DNA of 32,308 nucleotides from Chloroflexota bacterium. GTDB lineage: Bacteria; Chloroflexota; Anaerolineae; Promineifilales; Promineifilaceae. Each line of letters opens with the position of its first letter. Positions within the stretch are counted from its first letter, which is position 1. This document shows positions 1 to 15,359 of this stretch, piece after piece. The position numbers were made by a program, and so were the translations under genes. The DNA is taken from positions 1 through 32,308 of the forward strand of contig RFGV01000230.1 of the NCBI GenBank assembly GCA_003696605.1, read 5' to 3'. The notes under the pieces are model-generated. The model saw only the letters and a list, made by a program, of their open reading frames with translations. It did no database searches and was not told where the DNA came from.

Positions 1-3
1 CAT
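1..3 (-). CDS. Start codon of a minus-strand gene that leaves the window
   Basis: The first three bases read ATG on the minus strand. They are preceded, on that strand, by a good Shine-Dalgarno AAAGGAG (about 11-17) seven bases away. This is the only part of the gene visible, so no product can be named. It lies downstream of, and on the same strand as, the AT-hook gene, with about 180 bp between them. It could be a third gene of the ATPase module or an unrelated gene with its own promoter. A perfect 8-bp palindrome TGTCGACA at 28-35 sits just upstream of the ribosome binding site and could be an operator. Confidence 0.55.
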
Positions 4-111
4 TGTGTCACTCCTTTCAGATGTGTTTGTCGACACCTGAGGATACACAGTGGCCTATCGACCTTCAAATCAAATTTACAGAAACTAATTTACACTACCA
101 GTTGAAGCAGA

Positions 112-143
112 AACGGCCGTTACCCTCGAACATAACGGCCGTT
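112..143. terminator. Hairpin made of two copies of the iterated palindrome
   Basis: Two ACGGCCGT copies (113-120 and 135-142) face each other across a 10-nt loop. They pair as AACGGCCGTTA with TAACGGCCGTT, an 11-bp perfect stem. It lies 40 bp past the stop codon of the AT-hook gene, so it may act as a terminator on the minus strand, although no T-run follows on that strand. On the plus strand it is followed by a T-rich stretch. Confidence 0.4.
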
Positions 144-183
144 CTTTACACTTTTTAAAATACGCCTTTTATTTATTGGTAAC

Positions 184-735
184 TCATAAATAAATATCGA
201 ATATTTTCTTTCGTATCTCCGTCAGGGTTTCGGCTTCCCCCAGGGACTCGGTCTCTAAAAACTGCGCTAGCAGTGCCAATGCCAATACAAATGTCTGACT
301 TTTGTTGGCACCAAAAGCAGCATGCAATGTGCCATGCGCTCGCCCCAGTTCAATGACTTGTTGCGGGGAAACCCTGAGCGAAGTCCATTTTTGTTCAGCT
401 TCCCCTGTGGGCAAAGGTAAATCCCACAATAGATACAATGATTCCAAATCAGTAATACCTTCTGGAATCTCTCGCGTACGATCGGCCACGGCGCGGCGCA
501 ATGCTTCTAAACGTGCTGCCAAAACCGAAATGGCCAGGTCGGGTACATCAGCCCGATTCAACTTACCAGGCAAAAAACCTGCCAGCCGCTTCATTTCCTG
601 CTTTTGGGTATCAGTGAGGGTTACGTAAACATTTTGGCGGCTAACAGGACGAGGTGGTCGGCCTCGTTTTGGCTTCTCTTTCAAAAGGGCAGCCAGGGTG
701 CTTTCCCGTTTCTTATTTTGTTTCTTGCGGCTCAT
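184..735 (-). CDS. Small basic protein with an AT-hook-like segment, function unknown
   Basis: A 183-residue protein. The first 30 residues are strongly basic (KKQNKKRES) and contain KRGRPPRP, which has the GRP core of an AT-hook minor-groove DNA-binding motif. The rest is predicted helical, with a segment rich in Leu and Ala near residues 60-80, and has no motif I recognise. The ATG is only 4 bp beyond the stop of the ATPase gene, and AGGTAG overlapping that stop can serve as the ribosome binding site, so the two are cotranscribed and probably translationally coupled. Together they suggest a DNA-directed partner of the ATPase, as in transposition or DNA-processing modules; this is inference. 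Neither gene contains the ACGGCCGT palindrome that crowds the rest of the window. Confidence 0.75.
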   Translation of the reverse strand: MSRKKQNKKRESTLAALLKEKPKRGRPPRPVSRQNVYVTLTDTQKQEMKRLAGFLPGKLNRADVPDLAISVLAARLEALRRAVADRTREIPEGITDLESLYLLWDLPLPTGEAEQKWTSLRVSPQQVIELGRAHGTLHAAFGANKSQTFVLALALLAQFLETESLGEAETLTEIRKKIFDIYL

Positions 736-739
736 TCAA

Positions 740-1615
740 CTACCTGTCCCCCGCTTGGCGATAATCTGGATGTTCTTCCAGGAATTTTGAAACGAATGCA
801 GCATCAATTTGTAACTTGTCACTTGTCAATAACTCCAGACACAAGTGTAGACACAAGAGGCAAATGCTGCGAGGGTATCCCCGGGTTTCCCGCCAAATAG
901 GCAAAATGGCATCGTCGGTAAAGAGTGGTGGTTGCTTGGCGTCTCTACCAGCGGCGAGCAAGCGGTATTCTATCAAGCTTTTGGTATCGTCAGGGGTGAG
1001 TGGGTCAAGGGAAGAGCGTGTAGCAACCCGGTCGTTGAAATCCGGCACCTGGCGCAAATTAATATCTAGCTCTGGTCGCCCTAGCAAGATTAATTGATAT
1101 GCCTTGCCGCCACGTGGATCGCGAAAGTTTAACAACCGACGCAGTTCGACAAATTGCTCTGGTCCCAGTTCGTGGGCTTCATCAATAATAATGAGGGGCA
1201 AAACACCTTGTTCGCTTTGTTCTATCAGGAAGGCCCGAAATTCGTTTAGCTGGTCTTCTGTAGCCCGACGCGTCCGCAATCCAAATTCTGCGGCAATGCG
1301 TCGCAATAAGAGCAGACCGCTTTTTTTGGGTGCTTCATCAATTTTGGCGGCTACGAAGTCGGGACGTCGATCGTAGCGACTGTGGAACCAGGAGGCGAGG
1401 GTTGTTTTGCCGGTACCAATTTCCCCCACGATAACGGATGCACCCTGACCAGCTTCCACCATATAGCTTACTTTGGAAAGCGCCCGCCGGGTTTCCGTAG
1501 AAAGGTACATGAATCGGGGATCGGCTTCGATGGTAAATGGCGGGACTACAACGCCCAGCCGTTCCCAATCAGGACGATATTTTTCAAGATCGAGTTCCAG
1601 TTGCATATTGTTCAT
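740..1615 (-). CDS. ExeA/TniB-like AAA+ ATPase
   Basis: A P-loop ATPase of 291 residues. The N-terminal block PPFTIEADPRFMYLS around residues 25-39 is the typical entry of ExeA-type ATPases. Walker A is GEIGTGKT (64-71) and Walker B is LIIIDEAHEL (141-150, D145 E146). A sensor-like segment with LGRPEL follows, then a helical lid domain. ExeA homologues occur in secretion systems and, as TniB/MuB-like helpers, in transposons. No transposase or secretion gene is visible here, so the exact role is open. An in-frame TTG at 1642 would add nine residues; I prefer the ATG at 1615 (or 1606) because the conserved part begins just after it, but no clear ribosome binding site decides it. It heads an operon with the AT-hook gene. 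Confidence 0.85.
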   Translation of the reverse strand: MNNMQLELDLEKYRPDWERLGVVVPPFTIEADPRFMYLSTETRRALSKVSYMVEAGQGASVIVGEIGTGKTTLASWFHSRYDRRPDFVAAKIDEAPKKSGLLLLRRIAAEFGLRTRRATEDQLNEFRAFLIEQSEQGVLPLIIIDEAHELGPEQFVELRRLLNFRDPRGGKAYQLILLGRPELDINLRQVPDFNDRVATRSSLDPLTPDDTKSLIEYRLLAAGRDAKQPPLFTDDAILPIWRETRGYPRSICLLCLHLCLELLTSDKLQIDAAFVSKFLEEHPDYRQAGDR

Positions 1616-2157
1616 GGCTGTATCGTATATAAGTATGCTCAAAATGTCAAGCTTTTAGGGTCTAAAGGGTAATTGTTTTCGCTTTTTTCTATATACATTC
1701 ATGTTTATTGCAATCTATAGCATATAGATTTGTTGACATAGCGTTGCAAATTTGATAGACTGTTTCAAGTTATTGGGATATAGGGGTTTTTAAGCTCAAA
1801 ATAATGTATTTTGGTTTATTTTGTTTATGATTTTTGTTTGAATTGGGTATATCGGGGAGGAAAGGGCATGTTGTAAGTTAAGCGGTTTGTGTGAGAAAGA
1901 CAAAGGCCAGGGCTTATTGCGCCTGGCCTTGGGTGGTATAAGTAAGCTACCTTTATCTGTTTCGGTGCCGCCAACACCGTTATCAGTGCCCCTTTAGTGG
2001 GGAGGGGGTTTTTTTGCCCCCAGGTAGCTCACCAGGTCCGGTAAGAGCATAACATAGGCGCGGTTGCCTGTCAATGGGGTAATTTTCTGTTGACTGGGTA
2101 GGTGTTTGTTTGCCTGTGGTTGGTTTGTGCTGCTTGCCGGACAAAGTCGAGTAGGCT
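1616..2157. other. AT-rich divergent intergenic region
   Basis: No credible gene lies in this 540-bp gap between the divergent ATPase and the 438-residue protein. A plus-strand TTGACA (1733-1738) is followed after 17 bp by TAGACT (1756-1761), a plausible promoter. A perfect 9-bp inverted repeat AAGGCCAGG/CCTGGCCTT (1903-1911 with 1922-1930) can form a hairpin. A second one, GGGGG-T7-G-CCCCC (2004-2021), lies closer to the gene. None of these is followed by a clean T-run, so they may be leader structures rather than terminators. The first 150 bp are clearly more AT-rich than the surroundings. Confidence 0.5.
1903..1930. repeat. 9-bp inverted repeat (hairpin)
   Basis: AAGGCCAGG and CCTGGCCTT are perfect complements around a 10-nt loop. 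The hairpin stands between two divergent genes, where a terminator is not needed for either, so a leader or operator role is as likely. Confidence 0.5.
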
Positions 2158-3474
2158 TTGGCTGGGCAAAGTGAATTGGTTTCGCCAGCTTTGCTGGCAG
2201 CACAAGAGAGGTTGTTGTCGCTGCGACGAAGGCAGCGGGCAGCGCGTCGGGCGATGGGGTTGCCGGTTTTGACGGCTGAGGACGGCCGTTTCCCGGATTA
2301 CGTCGTATTGCCCCATTCTCAATCCCCAACTACAAATTCAGACAGAGAAATTACTGCTGTAATTCAGCAACTGCCAACTCATATGGGTTGGGAAAGTGCC
2401 TCTTTAACGGCCGTTTTGCGTCGCTCCGCCTGTTCTCAATCTAAACCTGCCCATCATTCTTCTCATCTTCCGCAAAAAAATATTTCCAATACATCCTGCC
2501 TCAATTCCAAATTGGCTAAAGGGGAAACCATCTCTCCTCTCCCCTCCCCCTCTACTGTCACTGTGCGGGTATATGCGCCTCTGGCTTTGGCCATGCTTCG
2601 AACTGGTCAGGCTACGACTGGTCGCATTTGGTTATTGTTACGGTATTTAGATACAGACGGGCGTGGCTGGGTGACTGTGGAACAAGCTCGTAACTGGCTT
2701 ACGGACAAAACATCTATCTGGCGTGTTTGTGGATGGCGGCAGTTGCGAAATTTGTTGCGCCAGGGTGAGGGGGTTTTTTGGCATCGGGGAAACGGCCGTC
2801 TTTGGCTCTGTGCTATCCCCAAAGTGGCGGCGGCGCTAGGCGTTACCCAATTGACAGGCCGTCCAATTGCACTACCTGTATCTGTGTTAACGGCCGGTAT
2901 TGGCACAGTGCGTGCCCATTTCTATGCCACATTTCACAGTAGCCGAACAGCCAGTCAACAAACCCGCCACAAGCCAATTGCCAGGGAAACGATTGCGGCT
3001 ATCACTCATTTGCCGGAACGAACACAACGCCATTATGAACACAAAGCGGGTGTGCGCACGCAGCGCAACTTCGCTATTGGCAAAAAGGTTAATTCTGTTT
3101 CGGCGCATGAAATTGCCTGGGAAAGAGGCACGGCCGTTTTTGAACTGAAGGACTTTTTGGGCAAGCATGGCCAGCAAGGAAGTACCTACTGGGCATGGCA
3201 ATTGCCAAACAGTTATGTTGGCCCCCATAAACAAACGGGACGGGGGCGGCAAAAGCGTATGAATCGGGAACTGGCAGACCTGTTTATGCAAGGGATGACG
3301 GGGAACGGCCGTTCCGCCCATACGCCACCACCGCCCTATACGACTCGTCGTTATTACGCCAACGGCCGTTTGGCAGCCAAAGCCTGTACTCGCCGGGCAG
3401 CCAATGAACTATACTGGACAGTCCCCTACAAAAACGGCCGTTTACGCTTGTGGTATTTTCTTGAAACGAAATAA
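2158..3474 (+). CDS. Basic protein of unknown function, possible DNA-binding or replication-type protein
   Basis: A 438-residue, Arg-rich protein that I cannot assign. The frame opens with TTG directly after a TAG stop and has no obvious ribosome binding site, so the true start may be the ATG for Met33 (2254) or elsewhere. Residues about 55-135 are low-complexity and Ser/Thr/Gln-rich, like a linker. Residues about 140-220 (RIWLLLRYLDTDGRGWVT onward) look like a compact helical domain. Residues about 275-300 (RETIAAITHLPERTQRHYE) have the look of a helix-turn-helix, as in phage or plasmid replication organisers. The C-terminal part has several Tyr/Trp/Arg-rich strands. It carries seven exact ACGGCCGT copies, the densest cluster in the window, so the palindrome has added Asn-Gly-Arg and Thr-Ala-Val tripeptides to its coding sequence. 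Function is unknown; the DNA-binding reading is a weak inference. Confidence 0.65.
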   Translation: MAGQSELVSPALLAAQERLLSLRRRQRAARRAMGLPVLTAEDGRFPDYVVLPHSQSPTTNSDREITAVIQQLPTHMGWESASLTAVLRRSACSQSKPAHHSSHLPQKNISNTSCLNSKLAKGETISPLPSPSTVTVRVYAPLALAMLRTGQATTGRIWLLLRYLDTDGRGWVTVEQARNWLTDKTSIWRVCGWRQLRNLLRQGEGVFWHRGNGRLWLCAIPKVAAALGVTQLTGRPIALPVSVLTAGIGTVRAHFYATFHSSRTASQQTRHKPIARETIAAITHLPERTQRHYEHKAGVRTQRNFAIGKKVNSVSAHEIAWERGTAVFELKDFLGKHGQQGSTYWAWQLPNSYVGPHKQTGRGRQKRMNRELADLFMQGMTGNGRSAHTPPPPYTTRRYYANGRLAAKACTRRAANELYWTVPYKNGRLRLWYFLETK

Positions 3475-3540
3475 AAGTCGCCTTATGATTAAGTTGGAAA
3501 AAACTTGCCACCGTTCTAGGGATAAAGAAGGATTTAACTC

Positions 3541-4449
3541 ATGAAAATACAGGCATTGGATTTACACTTTCAAGGCATACCCGAAACAATTGCCTCATAC
3601 CTGGTCATAGGCAGCGAAGGACCTGTACTTGTCGAAACAGGTCCGGGGTCAACCCTGACTATGCTTAAAACCCAACTGGCTCAAGCCGGTTACCACCCAA
3701 CAGACATTAAACATGTTTTGGTGACCCACATTCACCTTGACCATGCTGGTGCGGCCGGGTGGTGGGCACAAAACGGCGCCCAAATTTACGTCCATGAATT
3801 TGGGGCGCGCCACCTGATCCACCCTGAAAAACTTTGGGCAAGCGCATCCCGGATTTATGGGGATAAAATGCAAACACTTTGGGGGGAAATGTTACCCGCT
3901 CCACCAGAACGGGTAACGGCCGTTCGTGACGGTGACATCATCGAAATAGGCGATTTACGCTTTGAAGCCATTGAAACACCCGGACACGCACGCCATCATC
4001 ACGTTTTCCGGTTAGGCAACATCGCTTTCACAGGTGATGCTGCCGGTATCCGCTTGCCTGGTTTCAACTTTCTGGATATTCCCGCACCACCACCAGAGTT
4101 TGACCTGGAAACATGGCTAACCACCTTGGACAAATTAAACCAGGCCCAATTTTCCGTCATTTATCCAACACATTACGGACAAGTGAAAAACGTTTCCGAA
4201 CATTTGGCACAGATTCGAGCGCGTTTACAAGCAGTTGCCGAGTTTGTCCGTGTACGTATGGAAAATGGCATGTCGCGAGATGATCTGGTTGTGGCTTATA
4301 CTGAATGGAACCATGAACTGGCGCGGGCAGCTGGTGTTTCCGAGTCTGGTATTGTCCACTTTGACACGGTAAACCCACTGTATATGTCTGTGGATGGCAT
4401 TATGCGCTACTGGCGGAAGCGGGCAGAGGCGGCGCAGTCTGCAACGTGA
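3541..4449 (+). CDS. Metallo-beta-lactamase-fold hydrolase
   Basis: A complete 302-residue MBL-fold protein of the glyoxalase-II-like branch. The zinc motif HxHxDH is THIHLDH with H63, H65, D67 and H68. Further ligands are the His in ETPGHARHHH (about 145-153), the Asp in FTGDAAG (about 165) and the His in YPTHYGQ (about 215). This set predicts a di-metal hydrolase acting on a thioester, phosphodiester or lactone in the cytoplasm; the substrate cannot be told. The C-terminal 80 residues are helical and may be a lid or dimerisation region. A Shine-Dalgarno AAGAAGGA precedes the ATG. The last 50 bp overlap, tail to tail, the 3' end of the histidine kinase gene on the other strand. Confidence 0.9.
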   Translation: MKIQALDLHFQGIPETIASYLVIGSEGPVLVETGPGSTLTMLKTQLAQAGYHPTDIKHVLVTHIHLDHAGAAGWWAQNGAQIYVHEFGARHLIHPEKLWASASRIYGDKMQTLWGEMLPAPPERVTAVRDGDIIEIGDLRFEAIETPGHARHHHVFRLGNIAFTGDAAGIRLPGFNFLDIPAPPPEFDLETWLTTLDKLNQAQFSVIYPTHYGQVKNVSEHLAQIRARLQAVAEFVRVRMENGMSRDDLVVAYTEWNHELARAAGVSESGIVHFDTVNPLYMSVDGIMRYWRKRAEAAQSAT

Positions 4450-10291: not shown

Positions 10292-13078
10292 ATGAGTACA
10301 CTTTCCCCTACCCCACTGTCCGGCATCCGTGATTCCGCTACGGATGGAGATTCTCAGGAAAAAACAACACACAAATATGTGTATCTGTTTAGTGAACTAG
10401 ACGCTGCCGAAGCATATGTAGGTGGCAACTGGGAAGACGTGCGCGGTTTGCTTGGTGGTAAAGGCGCAAATCTGGCTGATATGACTCGATTGGGAATCCC
10501 GGTGCCACCAGGATTTACAATAACAACCGAAGCCTGCAATGCTTATCTGGCTGCTGGGGGAAAATTTCCACCTGGTTTGTGGGAACAGATAATGACGGCA
10601 ATGGCGGCTCTGTCAGAAGCAACGGGCAAGGAGTTTGGTAATCCAGATAATCCGTTGCTGGTCTCTTGTCGTTCTGGGGCCAAATTTTCCATGCCAGGTA
10701 TGATGGATACCGTCTTGAATATTGGGTTGAATGATGAAGTGGTGGCGGGATTGATAGCGCGGACGGGAAACGGCCGTTTTGCCTGGGATCTCTACCGTCG
10801 CCTCATTCAAATGTTTGGCAATGTCGTGCTAGGGGTTCCCGATGAAGCCTTTGAAGAAGTCATCACCAACCAGCGGCAAAAAGCCAAAGTTACGTCTGAT
10901 GCAGAACTTTCTGCCACTGACTGGCAAACAATTACACACGAATTCAAGGCCATCATCCAAAGACATACCGGCACCACCTTCCCCACCGATCCATACGAAC
11001 AATTACGGCAAGCCACAGAAGCAGTATTCAACTCATGGAACGGCAAACGAGCCGTTGATTATCGCAACGCTGCCGGAATCCCCCACGATTTGGGAACGGC
11101 CGTAAACATCCAGACAATGGTATTCGGCAACCTGGACGACCGTTCTGCCACCGGTGTCGCCATGTCACGCAACGCCTCTACCGGCGAACCCGAACTCGAA
11201 GGCGACTTCCTCCTCAACGCCCAAGGCGAAGACGTTGTCGCCGGCATTCGCCTCACTCGTCCCCTGCGCGACCTGCAAACCCTCATGCCCGACATCTACG
11301 CCGAATTCCAGAAAATCGCCCGCAAACTGGAACACCATTACCGCAACATGCAAGACATGGAATTCACCATCGAAAGCGGCAAACTCTGGATATTACAAAC
11401 ACGCGACGGCAAACGCACCGCCCAGGCCGAAGTACGCATCGCCGTAGATATGGCCGAAGAAGGTCTCATCACCCGCGAAGAAGCAGTTCGCCGTGTTAAA
11501 CCAGCCCAGGTAGATTTCTTCCTCCACCCCCAACTAGACCTTGCTGCCCGGCAACAAAACAAACCCATCGCCAAAGGGCTCAACGTCTCCCCAGGAGCCG
11601 CCGTCGGTATGGTGGCCTTTGACGCCGATACCGCCGAAAAATGGGTCCGCGAAATGAGCCGCCAGGTCATTATGGTTCGCCCCGAAACCAAACCAGATGA
11701 CGTTCATGGCATGTTGGCCGCACAAGGGATTCTCACCAGTCGCGGCGGCCGTACCAGCCACGCCGCTCTGGTCGCCCGCCAATTTGGTAAACCGGCCGTT
11801 GTGGGCGTCAGCGAACTGGAAATTGACCTGGACAGCCGCTTAATGACCATTGGCGATTTGGTCATCAAGGAAGGTGACTGGCTATCCATCGACGGCACAG
11901 AAGGATTGATCTATCTGGGCAAACTGCCAACCATTGTGCCCGATCTGGAAAACCCCTGGCTCAGCAAACTGCTATCGTGGGCAGATGAATTTCGCACACT
12001 GGCAGTATGGGCCAATGCTGATTACCCCCGCGACGCTGAGCGTGCCCGCAGGTATGGCGCCGAAGGCATTGGACTGTGTCGTACTGAGCACATGTTCTTT
12101 GAAACAGATCGCCTGCCCATTGTGCAAAGCATGATCATGGCCCGTACCCCAGCCGAAAGACAAGAAGCATTGGCCCGCTTGCTCCCTATGCAGCGCCAGG
12201 ATTTTGAAGGATTGTTCCGGGTAATGGATGGATTACCGGTCATTATTCGTTTGCTGGATCCCCCATTACATGAATTTTTGCCTGCCTATGACCAACTGGT
12301 GCAAGACCTGGCCGATTTAAAGGTTCGATTACAGCATTATCACACCTTGAGCGAAATTGATGCGGCTTTGGCTGAAATTCGGCTCAAACAAAATTTTTTG
12401 GAGCGGCTGGAGTCGTTGCGAGAGGCCAACCCGATGTTAGGAACGCGGGGAGTACGACTGGGGATTCTCATTCCGGATCTCACACGAATGCAGGTGCGGG
12501 CAATTTTTGAGGCTGCTTGCAAATGTGCCAAAGATGGGGTGGATGTGCATCCTGAAGTGATGATTCCACTCACGGCCCATGTGAATGAGTTGCGTGTGCA
12601 ACAAAGTGAACTGGAGGCGGAGGCCAGGGCTGTGATGGCGGAGCAGGGAATTACGATAGATTACAAATTTGGCACAATGATCGAAATTCCGCGAGCCGCA
12701 CTCACGGCCGATGAGATTGCAGAAGTGGCTCAATTTTTCTCGTTTGGCACAAATGACCTTACCCAGACAACTTTTGGTGTTTCGCGCGATGATGCAGAGG
12801 CCGGTTTTCTGATGGCGTATTTGCAACAAGGTATTTTGCCGCACAATCCGTTTGCCACGATTGATGTGGCTGGTGTGGGTAAGCTGATGGAGATGGCGGT
12901 GACGCTGGGGCGGAAAACCCGGCCGAATATGGAAATTGGTATTTGTGGTGAGCATGGTGGTGATCCGGAGAGTATCGCGTTTTGCCATCGCCTGGGCCTG
13001 AATTATGTCTCCTGTTCTCCTTTCCGGGTGCCGGTTGCCAGACTGGCGGCTGCTCATGCGGCGTTGTCGGAAAGGTAG
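10292..13078 (+). CDS. ppdK: Pyruvate, phosphate dikinase
   Basis: Cytoplasmic enzyme interconverting pyruvate + ATP + phosphate and PEP + AMP + diphosphate, 928 residues. The ATP-grasp domain opens with GGKGANLADMTRLGIPVPPG (about 51-70). The swivelling phosphohistidine domain has SRGGRTSHAALVAR with the catalytic His at 490. The PEP/pyruvate barrel shows EGIGLCRTEHMF, GTMIEIPRAAL, FSFGTNDLTQTTFG and CGEHGGDP with the proton-donor Cys at 885. An extra N-terminal tail of about 30 residues is Ser/Thr-rich. The ATG at 10292 is fixed by AAGGAGG 7 bp before it; an upstream frame to 10253 lacks one. The stretch 11050-11660 uses mainly C-ending codons, whereas the last 700 bp use G- and T-ending ones, a visible switch of base skew within one gene. 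The C-terminal half has no iterated palindrome. Confidence 0.96.
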   Translation: MSTLSPTPLSGIRDSATDGDSQEKTTHKYVYLFSELDAAEAYVGGNWEDVRGLLGGKGANLADMTRLGIPVPPGFTITTEACNAYLAAGGKFPPGLWEQIMTAMAALSEATGKEFGNPDNPLLVSCRSGAKFSMPGMMDTVLNIGLNDEVVAGLIARTGNGRFAWDLYRRLIQMFGNVVLGVPDEAFEEVITNQRQKAKVTSDAELSATDWQTITHEFKAIIQRHTGTTFPTDPYEQLRQATEAVFNSWNGKRAVDYRNAAGIPHDLGTAVNIQTMVFGNLDDRSATGVAMSRNASTGEPELEGDFLLNAQGEDVVAGIRLTRPLRDLQTLMPDIYAEFQKIARKLEHHYRNMQDMEFTIESGKLWILQTRDGKRTAQAEVRIAVDMAEEGLITREEAVRRVKPAQVDFFLHPQLDLAARQQNKPIAKGLNVSPGAAVGMVAFDADTAEKWVREMSRQVIMVRPETKPDDVHGMLAAQGILTSRGGRTSHAALVARQFGKPAVVGVSELEIDLDSRLMTIGDLVIKEGDWLSIDGTEGLIYLGKLPTIVPDLENPWLSKLLSWADEFRTLAVWANADYPRDAERARRYGAEGIGLCRTEHMFFETDRLPIVQSMIMARTPAERQEALARLLPMQRQDFEGLFRVMDGLPVIIRLLDPPLHEFLPAYDQLVQDLADLKVRLQHYHTLSEIDAALAEIRLKQNFLERLESLREANPMLGTRGVRLGILIPDLTRMQVRAIFEAACKCAKDGVDVHPEVMIPLTAHVNELRVQQSELEAEARAVMAEQGITIDYKFGTMIEIPRAALTADEIAEVAQFFSFGTNDLTQTTFGVSRDDAEAGFLMAYLQQGILPHNPFATIDVAGVGKLMEMAVTLGRKTRPNMEIGICGEHGGDPESIAFCHRLGLNYVSCSPFRVPVARLAAAHAALSER

Positions 13079-13109
13079 TCTGTACGTACGTTTTGCTCCT
13101 CCTCGTTTG

Positions 13110-13151
13110 GAAGCCGGTTCTGGTTTCCCCTACCGGGACTGGCTTCTTTTT
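13110..13151 (+). terminator. Rho-independent terminator of ppdK
   Basis: GAAGCCGGTTC (13110-13120) pairs with GGACTGGCTTC (13136-13146), allowing one mismatch and a G-U pair, and is followed at once by five Ts. It lies 30 bp after the ppdK stop and separates it from the formate dehydrogenase gene. Confidence 0.75.
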
Positions 13152-13277
13152 CATTGGTTTGGGCAAGGTGTGATGTTTGTCTGGTGCAATTGTGAAAAAT
13201 GTCACTATTAGATGTGGCAGAGGTTTTTGTATGCTGCAGGTGAGTTTTGAATGGATTGGTGTAGGTAAGGAGGCGAG

Positions 13278-15359
13278 ATGATAGAGCCAGATCGTGTGGT
13301 GCAGACGACATGTCCGTATTGTGGTGTGGGGTGTCAGGTGGATTTGTTTGTGCGGGAGGGGATGATTTATCGGGTAAACGGCCGTTTTGATAATGATGTC
13401 AATCGGGGTAATTTGTGTGTCAAGGGGCGATTTGGGTACGACTATGTGCATGCGCCTGACAGGTTGCAAACGCCCCTGTTGCGTACCGATCGACAGGCAA
13501 ACTGGCAGGCTGTTTCCTGGGAGGTGGCGCTTGATTTTGTGGCGGAACATTTGGCCCATATACGCCAGCGATGGGGTGCTGATAGTATTGCGTTTTTGAC
13601 GTCGGCCAAGTGTACCAATGAGGAAAATTATTTGTTGCAAAAGTTGGCACGGGGGGTAATTGGCACGAATCATGTCGATCATTGTGCCCGCCTCTGACAC
13701 AGCAGTAGTGTGGCCGGTCTGGCCACAACGGTTGGGTCGGGTGCCATGACTAATTCTATTCGGGATATTGAGCGGGCGCAGGTGTTGCTGGTGACCGGTT
13801 CGAATACGACTGAGGCGCACCCGGTGTTGAGCTTGCAGATGAAGAAGGCGGTGCGGAAGCATGGTGCGAAGCTGATTTTGGTGGATCCGCGTCGAATAGA
13901 ACTGGCAGATTTTGCCTGGTTGCATTTGCGGCAGAGGCCAGGGACGGATGTGGCGATTTTTAATGCGATGGCGCATGTGATTATTGCGGAGGGGTGGCTG
14001 AATCGGCCGTTTATTGAGACGCGGACGGAGGGATTTGCGGCGCTGGAGACGGCCGTTAAGCCCTGGACGCCAGCTCGTGCAGAGGCGATCTCTGGTGTGC
14101 CGGCAGAACAGATTGTTGCTGCGGCACGGGCATATGCGCAGGCGGAGCGATCAGCTATTTTCTGGGCAATGGGAATTACGCAGCACACTACTGGCACAGA
14201 TAATGTCAAGGCTTTGTCCAATCTTGCGCTCCTTACAGGGCATATTGGCCGGCCTGGAACAGGCTTGAATCCGCTGCGGGGTCAAAATAATGTGCAGGGG
14301 GCATGTGATATGGGGGGACTGCCCAATGTATTTCCGGGCTATCAGCCAGTGGTGGATGAAGCGGTGCGCCGCAAGTTTGCTGCTGGTTGGGGAGTTCCAT
14401 ATGAGCGGTTGAATGAACATCCAGGCTTGACTGTTACGGAGATAATGAATGGTGTGGAAAACGGCCGTATTCGGGCTATTTTCATTATGGGTGAAAACCC
14501 AATGCTTTCCGATCCGAACCTGAATCATGTGCGGGAGGCATTATCACAGGTAGAATTTCTGGTTATCCAAGACATCTTCCTCAACGAAACGGCCGAACTA
14601 GCCGACGTTATTCTGCCTGCGGCCAGTTTTGCCGAAAAATCAGGCACATTCACCAACACCGAGCGCCGCGTTCAACTCATTCGACCCGCCCTTTCTCCAC
14701 CCGGCATCGCTAAACCCGATTGGCAAATCATCACCGAGTTGGCAAACCGGTTGGGTGCCAACTGGCATTATACGCATCCCCGCGAAATATTTGCTGAATT
14801 GGCTGCCCTCACCCCTCAATATGCTGGAATGTCCTACGAACGTCTGGAAAAAGGCGGTTTACAATGGCCCTGCCCCACTCCAGACCATCCAGGCACGCCC
14901 ATTTTGCATGTAGAAAAATTTGCTCGTGGTAAAGGACTATTCTGCCCGGTTGATTATCGTCCGCCAGTTGAAGAAACGGACGAAACGTATCCCTTTATTC
15001 TCTCCACCGGCCGAATTTTATTCCATTGGCATGGCGGCACGCTTTCCCGGCGTTCGCCCGGACTGGATGAGATTGCACCAGTGGCAGAAGTGGAGATTCA
15101 TCCACAAGATGCCCATCGGTTAGGCTTGCAAGATGGTGAACTGGTACGAGTTTCTTCGCGACGGGGGCAGGTGGTGGCCACAGTCAAGTGTACTGGCCGC
15201 TCACCAGTAGGGACGGTATTTATGACGTTCCATTTTGCTGAAGCAGCTGCTAATTTGCTGACAATCGATGCGGTGGATCCAACCGCCAAGATACCGGAGT
15301 ATAAAGTCTGTGCAGTGAAAGTGGAAAAGGTGAAAGTTGGGGAGTCTGTTGCAAAATGA
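13278..15359 (+). CDS. fdhF: Selenocysteine-containing formate dehydrogenase, catalytic subunit
   Basis: Molybdenum/tungsten bis-MGD enzyme oxidising formate to CO2, 693 residues if the in-frame TGA at 13695-13697 is read as selenocysteine. The 4Fe-4S cluster ligands are C12, C15, C19 and C47 (CPYCGVGC and NLCVKG). Codon 140 is TGA in the context NHVDHCARL-U-HSSSVAGLA, the active-site context of formate dehydrogenases, where Sec140 and His141 are the known catalytic residues of E. coli FDH-H. The frame continues to the molybdopterin dinucleotide-binding domain (about 560-690, from STGRILFHWHGG). A SECIS hairpin follows the TGA. AAGGAGG lies 4 bp before the ATG. The formate channel gene follows 45 bp downstream. 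A naive annotation would split the gene into pieces of 139 and 549 residues. Confidence 0.93.
13695..13727 (+). promoter_or_regulatory. UGA selenocysteine codon with bacterial SECIS element
   Basis: The TGA (13695-13697) is followed after 11 nt by a perfect 7-bp hairpin, TGTGGCC (13709-13715) with GGCCACA (13721-13727), and an apical loop GGTCT. The E. coli fdhF SECIS has the same GGUCU in its loop, and the first loop G is at about +19 from the UGA in both. This is what the elongation factor SelB would bind to insert selenocysteine. Confidence 0.9.

Follow-up and report, generated by a model that had tools for sequence, protein, structure and literature searches.

The window (the whole stretch of 32,308 nucleotides that was analyzed) begins at a contig end, and the following features were assigned near this end:

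1..105, minus strand: terminal part of an IS256-type insertion sequence, in which the transposase start codon is located at 3..1; outside the system
184..735, minus strand: p183, with an AT-hook-like motif KPKRGRPP (identified by eye) and two predicted ribbon-helix-helix (RHH) units
740..1615, minus strand: AAA+ ATPase of the ExeA/TniB/TnsC type, with AAA_22, PHROG 296 and ShTnsC matches
1622..1650, minus strand: promoter-like site of the ATPase gene (TTGACA, 17 bp, TACGAT)
1712..1730, no strand: inverted repeat AATCTATA-N3-TATAGATT of 19 bp, a candidate operator between two divergent promoters
1733..1761, plus strand: promoter-like site towards p438 (TTGACA, 17 bp, TAGACT)
1897..2045, minus strand: structured RNA gene, a P1 stem enclosing three hairpins and then a terminator (covariance model core 1936-2035)
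2046..2074, minus strand: promoter-like site of the RNA gene (TTGACA, 17 bp, TATGCT)
2158..3474, plus strand: p438, predicted tandem winged-helix protein, initiator-like; start codon uncertain (TTG)
3541..4449, plus strand: MBL, a metallo-beta-lactamase-like gene named by eye from its HXHXDH motif; a neighbor conserved in synteny

The region picked out by the initial annotation consists of a conserved operon of two genes and an insertion sequence. What makes the locus interesting is an undescribed RNA with its protein partner p438, both located next to the ATPase side of this operon. New are a covarying RNA family, which has its own promoter and terminator and no match in Rfam at curated thresholds, and the firmly linked p438, for which no match was accepted in Pfam, PHROGs or NCBIfam.

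The ATPase-p183 Operon and the Adjoining Insertion Sequence

The ATPase gene (1615..740) and the p183 gene (735..184) are both read from the minus strand with 4 bp between them, forming the two-gene operon that had been proposed. The similarity of the ATPase to TniB and ExeA was likewise supported, as the protein matches AAA_22 (1e-22), PHROG 296, annotated as 'DNA transposition protein' (7e-22), and ShTnsC (1e-3); the match to TniB (4.6e-3) is under the cut-off of that family. In these searches, the ATPase is closest to the ExeA and TnsC types. Members of this family load partner proteins onto DNA. While it belongs to the same ATPase family as TnsC, TniB and ExeA by Pfam, PHROGs and the PDB sequence search, it differs from these proteins in being encoded by a single-copy gene at a fixed position, with an RHH partner and with no transposase seen.

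The second protein of the operon had been described as an AT-hook protein of DNA-binding appearance, and this description can be sharpened to an AT-hook-like motif, recognized by eye, together with a predicted tandem RHH fold. In the AlphaFold2 model of p183 (pLDDT 85), strands 34-40 and 116-122 are each followed by two helices. The best Foldseek matches of this model are chains of the F-plasmid relaxosome (E 8e-3, approximately 11% identity), which we take to be TraY. The tandem RHH fold would be common to both proteins, while p183 differs from TraY in its AT-hook-like N-terminus and in the low sequence identity. A search of the p183 profile against PDB sequences returned nothing credible, and no p183 homologue was found in the plasmid and phage collections searched.

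The initial annotation had also proposed a third gene of the module starting at position 3. The start codon is real; however, it is that of an IS256-type transposase in a separate element and not of an operon member. Positions 1-105 of the window are 90% identical to positions 1324-1429 of another locus (L003, contig C529), which form the end of an insertion sequence, and the open reading frame beyond the matched end of that element matches Transposase_mut (E 3.9e-68). Accordingly, the three do not form a unit that moves jointly, as an unrelated insertion sequence contains the third. As in the window, the contig ends within approximately 1-2 kb after p183 in many assemblies of relatives (L024-L063), which suggests repeats or insertion hot spots at this place.

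Conservation and Position of the Locus

Of 148 genomes searched, 39 contain p183 and 56 the ATPase when distant matches are counted. The locus is characteristic of one family of Chloroflexota. Among the 52 genomes of this family, 34 contain p183, 35 an ATPase orthologue, 33 both and 36 either of the two, where distant ATPase matches of approximately 30% identity (G018, G031) are left out of the family-level counts. In the three family genomes that hold only one of the genes, this gene is close to a contig edge. As a rule, p183 and the ATPase are present in a single copy per genome, and their position is nearly always the same. In the 28 family loci that were fetched, p438 was found in 27, the MBL gene in 24 and a histidine-kinase-like (HK) gene in 15, with part of the missing neighbors being due to short contigs. 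Moreover, p438 is present in all 36 family genomes that carry one or both genes of the pair. The sister family also has the pair in a more diverged form. The pair is absent from six family genomes that are at least 94% complete and is thus not essential in all members. That the locus is old and conserved, and that it is not a transposon, is far surer than any functional reading given below.

Scarcity of the Palindromic Octamer

This genome has a frequent palindrome, the octamer ACGGCCGT, with 66 copies in the window, where AACGGCCGTT has 41. The reported absence of palindromes between positions 143 and 2281, where about four would be expected, was reproduced for ACGGCCGT: no copy starts within 136-2281, with approximately 4.4 expected at the mean density of the window. 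However, this gap ranks only second in the window after the one from 11096 to 13378 (2282 bp). When 66 sites were placed at random in 20,000 trials, the longest gap reached at least 2147 bp in 55% of the trials and the second longest in 14%. Taken alone in the window, the gap is therefore not unusual.

The scarcity is real once relatives are compared. In the p183-ATPase-RNA stretches of 19 loci, the window included, 16 copies of ACGGCCGT were counted against 77.3 expected from the flanks, although several of these loci come from one genus and the sites are accordingly not independent. Across 16 loci, the octamer density per kb rises from 0.22 (ATPase) through 0.89 (p183), 1.20 (MBL) and 2.14 (HK) to 4.35 (p438), while the protein identity to the window in the family loci is approximately 73-90, 48-70, 46-63, 52-61 and 35-50%, respectively, the ATPase being the most conserved of the five. 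Since the density falls as protein conservation rises, constraint rather than recent arrival would be the best account of the gap. As ACGGCCGT is densest in p438 and least dense in the ATPase, the density of palindromes could give a rough measure of constraint.

A Structured RNA Linked to p438

Alignment of the region upstream of the ATPase gene, between this gene and p438, revealed a structured stretch together with a conserved promoter and a terminator. For the copy in the window, the folding z-score is -5.0 on the minus strand and -3.4 on the plus strand. Six divergent loci were left out of the first alignment, made before the RNA model R1, and all were later recovered by the RNA model except L057, which scored only 0.03. 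In an alignment of 44 sequences, which was fitted to the covariance model and hence favors the structure, 89.4% of the cells are paired compared with 72.7% after shuffling and 44-52% with slid partners, and the covariation score is 0.394 compared with 0.119 after shuffling. Stem P1 shows changes on both sides in all of its 10 pairs, while P2 and P3 are nearly invariant and are supported by sequence conservation.

With the refined covariance model, 86 copies of the RNA were detected in 40 of the 148 genomes, all 40 belonging to the family, with up to 11 copies per genome. Among family genomes, the RNA is found in 35 of the 36 that carry the ATPase pair and in 5 of the 16 that do not, an association that is inflated by shared ancestry and incomplete genomes. 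Among 400 genomes of the phylum, four gave matches, three of which are family members; the fourth (G266) was judged to be a chance finding, with two weak matches in repeat-like stretches with shared flanks and p438 not nearby.

The linkage of the RNA to p438 is strict. Homologues of p438 number 108 in 44 of the 148 genomes, and 83 of the 86 RNAs are located within 2 kb of one of them, all 83 in divergent orientation. No nearby RNA was found for 38 of the 108 p438 matches, many of which are fragments or contig-edge pieces. In addition to the main locus, there are paralogue modules that consist of p438 and the RNA with neither ATPase nor p183, and tandem copies occur in G014, G011, G026 and G008. 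The genomes G031 and G014 have approximately ten modules each; in G031 the ATPase has no close orthologue, and a protein of 29% identity is encoded on another contig instead. A TTGACN motif is found within 75 nt upstream of 30 of 32 paralogue RNAs (1.7 expected) and a T run downstream of 29 of 32. Among the 31 paralogue RNAs included in a loop comparison, from which the main-locus RNAs were left out, ten have a 6-mer common to the P4 loop and the terminator loop (1.8 expected; none of 2000 permutations gave as high a count), and one partner may thus read both loops. Inspection of P4 by eye suggested that neither kissing-loop (U-turn) motifs nor tRNA-anticodon-like loops (CUNNNAA) are general.

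Rfam contains no family match to the RNA in window positions 1-3600 up to E 1, with a single sub-threshold match elsewhere in this interval, nor any match at gathering scores to ten paralogue loci. No earlier description of the RNA was found in a literature search; another RNA, Chloroflexi-1, is given in PMC2864571. The RNA resembles 6S RNA in its similar size and in having its own promoter and terminator, but it forms a four-way junction and not a rod. Its identity with 6S RNA was rejected, as the 6S RNA of this genome lies elsewhere: the sole match to RF00013, over the cut-off, is C144:6513-6693 (72 bits). A small open reading frame on the p438 strand, encoding a common stretch KKPLVT..LLP....WGWRCE.NY, ends just beyond the RNA at several loci (L101, L104, L106, L107, L110), and the two examples scanned gave no Pfam match.

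Predicted Structure of p438

The p438 protein is large and fast evolving, and its alignment (A6) contains 36 of 47 sequences after 11 truncated or near-identical sequences or sequences with unknown residues were left out. In the AlphaFold2 model (pLDDT 82), the two winged helices are accompanied by further helices at the N-terminus and by a C-terminal domain. The top Foldseek matches are RepE54 entries, with weak E-values of approximately 0.1. Among the 50 matches listed, the RepE54 entries are the ones that span both winged helices of p438 (residues 132-356), with Z-scores of 5.4-5.8, which are below the reliable range, while single-domain matches (for example MCM, MarR and Cdc6) reach Z-scores of 6.0 to 7.3. 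In the fold listings, RepE does not stand clearly above unrelated winged-helix entries. The model would share with RepE of plasmid F two winged helices in the same order, and it differs from RepE in its weak score, an identity of 8-10%, the lack of a Pfam match and the additional N-terminal and C-terminal parts. This predicted likeness to an initiator is suggestive but weak and is not a proof.

Neither a toxin family match to p438 nor a credible hit of its profile among PDB sequences was obtained, and homologues were absent from the plasmid and phage collections searched. Near p438 in the window, the search for iterons showed only repeats of the genome-wide palindrome. A distant p438 relative is encoded on a viral contig (L183:1571-2452; profile E 7.5e-26), the only one from the scan of a viral collection.

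Promoters and a Candidate Operator

The promoter-like site at 1622..1650 is so close to the ATG at 1615 that the ATPase mRNA could be leaderless. Upstream of it, the inverted repeat AATCTATA-N3-TATAGATT has a match with at most one mismatch in 22 of 59 genomes; most of these have a single match, usually at the main locus. The p438-directed promoter was found at all 26 main loci (0.5 expected), and the predicted transcript runs antisense through the RNA gene. Only 1 of 20 other loci (L109) has this promoter, and since L109 itself adjoins an MBL gene, it probably represents the main module in that genome. As the promoter is missing elsewhere, those modules must express p438 by other means.

Replication Context

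ParA-like genes lie within 4 kb of p438 on either side at 6 of the 66 named loci (raw count), and ParB was confirmed by Pfam at three p438 loci. By raw count, 13 of 34 paralogue modules (including L096, L097, L099, L100, L112 and L114) adjoin an ATPase_2/DUF234 gene, a second kind of AAA+ ATPase beside p438.

The GC skew was analyzed in one genome, G023, picked for its long contigs. On its 1.0-Mb contig, of which 800 kb were covered in full, the minimum of the cumulative skew is at 871.0 kb and hence inside the main locus (870.4-874.5 kb), with a 5-95% range of the change point of 780-920 kb and a plateau up to approximately 940 kb. The other large contig of this genome, which was sampled, also switches skew sign. 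The dnaA gene is located at 670 kb of the same contig as the main locus, at a distance of 200 kb. A replacement of DnaA by p438 was rejected, as DnaA is present.

Discussion

The best-supported function, to which we assign a probability of roughly 0.4, is that of a plasmid-type initiator with a control RNA and a repressor that has settled on the chromosome. The locus would then work like the control region of a plasmid-type replicon, in which p438 would bind DNA as the initiator and the RNA would limit the amount of p438 made. Transcription from the promoter at 1733 of the main locus would produce a p438 mRNA whose leader is antisense to the RNA over its full length. p183 would bind the palindrome at 1712-1730 and repress the two adjoining promoters, as CopG does for repB, and the ATPase may act with p438 or p183 at the same site, either as a helicase loader or as a DNA-remodelling partner. 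Repression by p183, the function of the RNA and the role of the ATPase are what we infer here. This reading is favored by the conserved synteny and single copy, the covariation of the RNA, its divergent linkage to p438 (83 of 86), the p438-directed promoter (26 of 26), the RepE54 match, the tandem RHH units of p183, a palindrome that occurs almost only beside p183, the ParA-like and ParB genes, and the skew of G023. It is weakened by a RepE likeness that is faint and finds no support from sequence profiles, by the chromosomal location, the presence of DnaA, the lack of plasmid or phage homologues of p438, the broad skew range, the sign change on the other large contig and the six near-complete genomes without the pair. 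Likewise, with the p438-directed promoter missing at 19 of 20 paralogue loci, antisense control may not be a general feature. The earlier proposal of an unrecognized DNA-processing system still names the likeliest class, but the other parts of this system lie beyond the other side of the ATPase, outside the stretch that had been delimited.

In the copG-repB-RNAII system of plasmid pMV158 (PMC4485353), the control of a single initiator involves its gene, an RHH repressor and a small antisense RNA. The layout of the present locus would be analogous, with a candidate operator and promoters between divergent units. It differs from pMV158 in that the RNA is a four-way junction and not one hairpin, the locus is chromosomal, p438 is a predicted winged-helix protein and not of the rolling-circle type, p183 has two RHH units and an AAA+ ATPase is added. 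If p438 is indeed an initiator, a bacterial chromosome that has DnaA would also use RNA control of initiation in the manner of plasmids. We regard as improbable the wider proposal of an origin-linked second initiation system alongside DnaA, in which a winged-helix initiator would be checked by a new class of structured RNA, with a TnsC-like ATPase and a tandem RHH organizer, and in which the extra initiator-RNA pairs would each have an individual loop code and represent independent replicons or incompatibility groups that came to share one genome.

Alternatively, the operon could be a domesticated helper of the Tn7/Mu type, whose ATPase once chose targets for a transposase that was lost and now serves the host jointly with p183, for instance in DNA looping or site marking, the p438-RNA module being an independent neighbor. 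A TniB/TnsC-type AAA+ ATPase is present, its resemblance to TnsC, TniB and the transposition protein of PHROGs points in this direction, and the pair is separable from the p438-RNA module, given the paralogue modules that lack both genes. However, no DDE transposase was seen next to the ATPase, whose neighbors in the family loci are p183, p438 and MBL, and a Pfam scan of eight neighbor proteins at the G023 locus revealed no transposase. Nor does the position vary, the same neighbors being found in most family loci with one copy per genome, and every one of the 36 family genomes with the pair also carries p438. We therefore consider a transposition helper unlikely, albeit worth keeping in mind. 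Similarly doubtful is a reading in which p438 and the RNA form a regulatory or toxin-antitoxin-like pair with no role in replication, the RNA binding the protein and the copies coexisting by means of their own loops. The 6-mer shared by the P4 and terminator loops, the strict RNA-p438 linkage and the tandem copies would fit such a pair, whereas the size and fast evolution of p438, its predicted initiator-like double winged helix and the lack of a toxin family match would not.

A recent horizontal arrival of the ATPase operon, as the initial annotation had suggested, has a negligible probability. It was brought up by the palindrome gap and the contig break beside the transposase start, but both genes are at the same place in most relatives beside the same p438 and MBL genes, and some of the copies contain the palindrome, which refutes it. 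The synteny and single copy conserved in the family, the explanation of the low octamer density by constraint and the absence of p183 from the plasmid and phage collections searched argue in the same direction. As for the ATPase itself, this TnsC-like protein, the most conserved of the five compared, would show that a fixed chromosomal role is possible for its family.

Occurrence of the Palindrome in Other Genomes

No report of the palindrome in Chloroflexi was found in a literature search; AACGGCCGTT resembles HIP1 of cyanobacteria. A connection between the palindrome and the ATPase pair was rejected, as the numbers of AACGGCCGTT copies in the family genomes with the pair (median 625) and without it (135.5) are not clearly different (p 0.50), and palindrome-rich genomes such as G012, G018 and G032 do not contain the pair. 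In its own genome AACGGCCGTT is hugely over-represented, with 3085 copies compared with 25 of the reversed control. It is close to the control level in several other genera and in every other family among the 148 genomes, while it exceeds 500 copies in 27 of the 52 family genomes (G000-G051).
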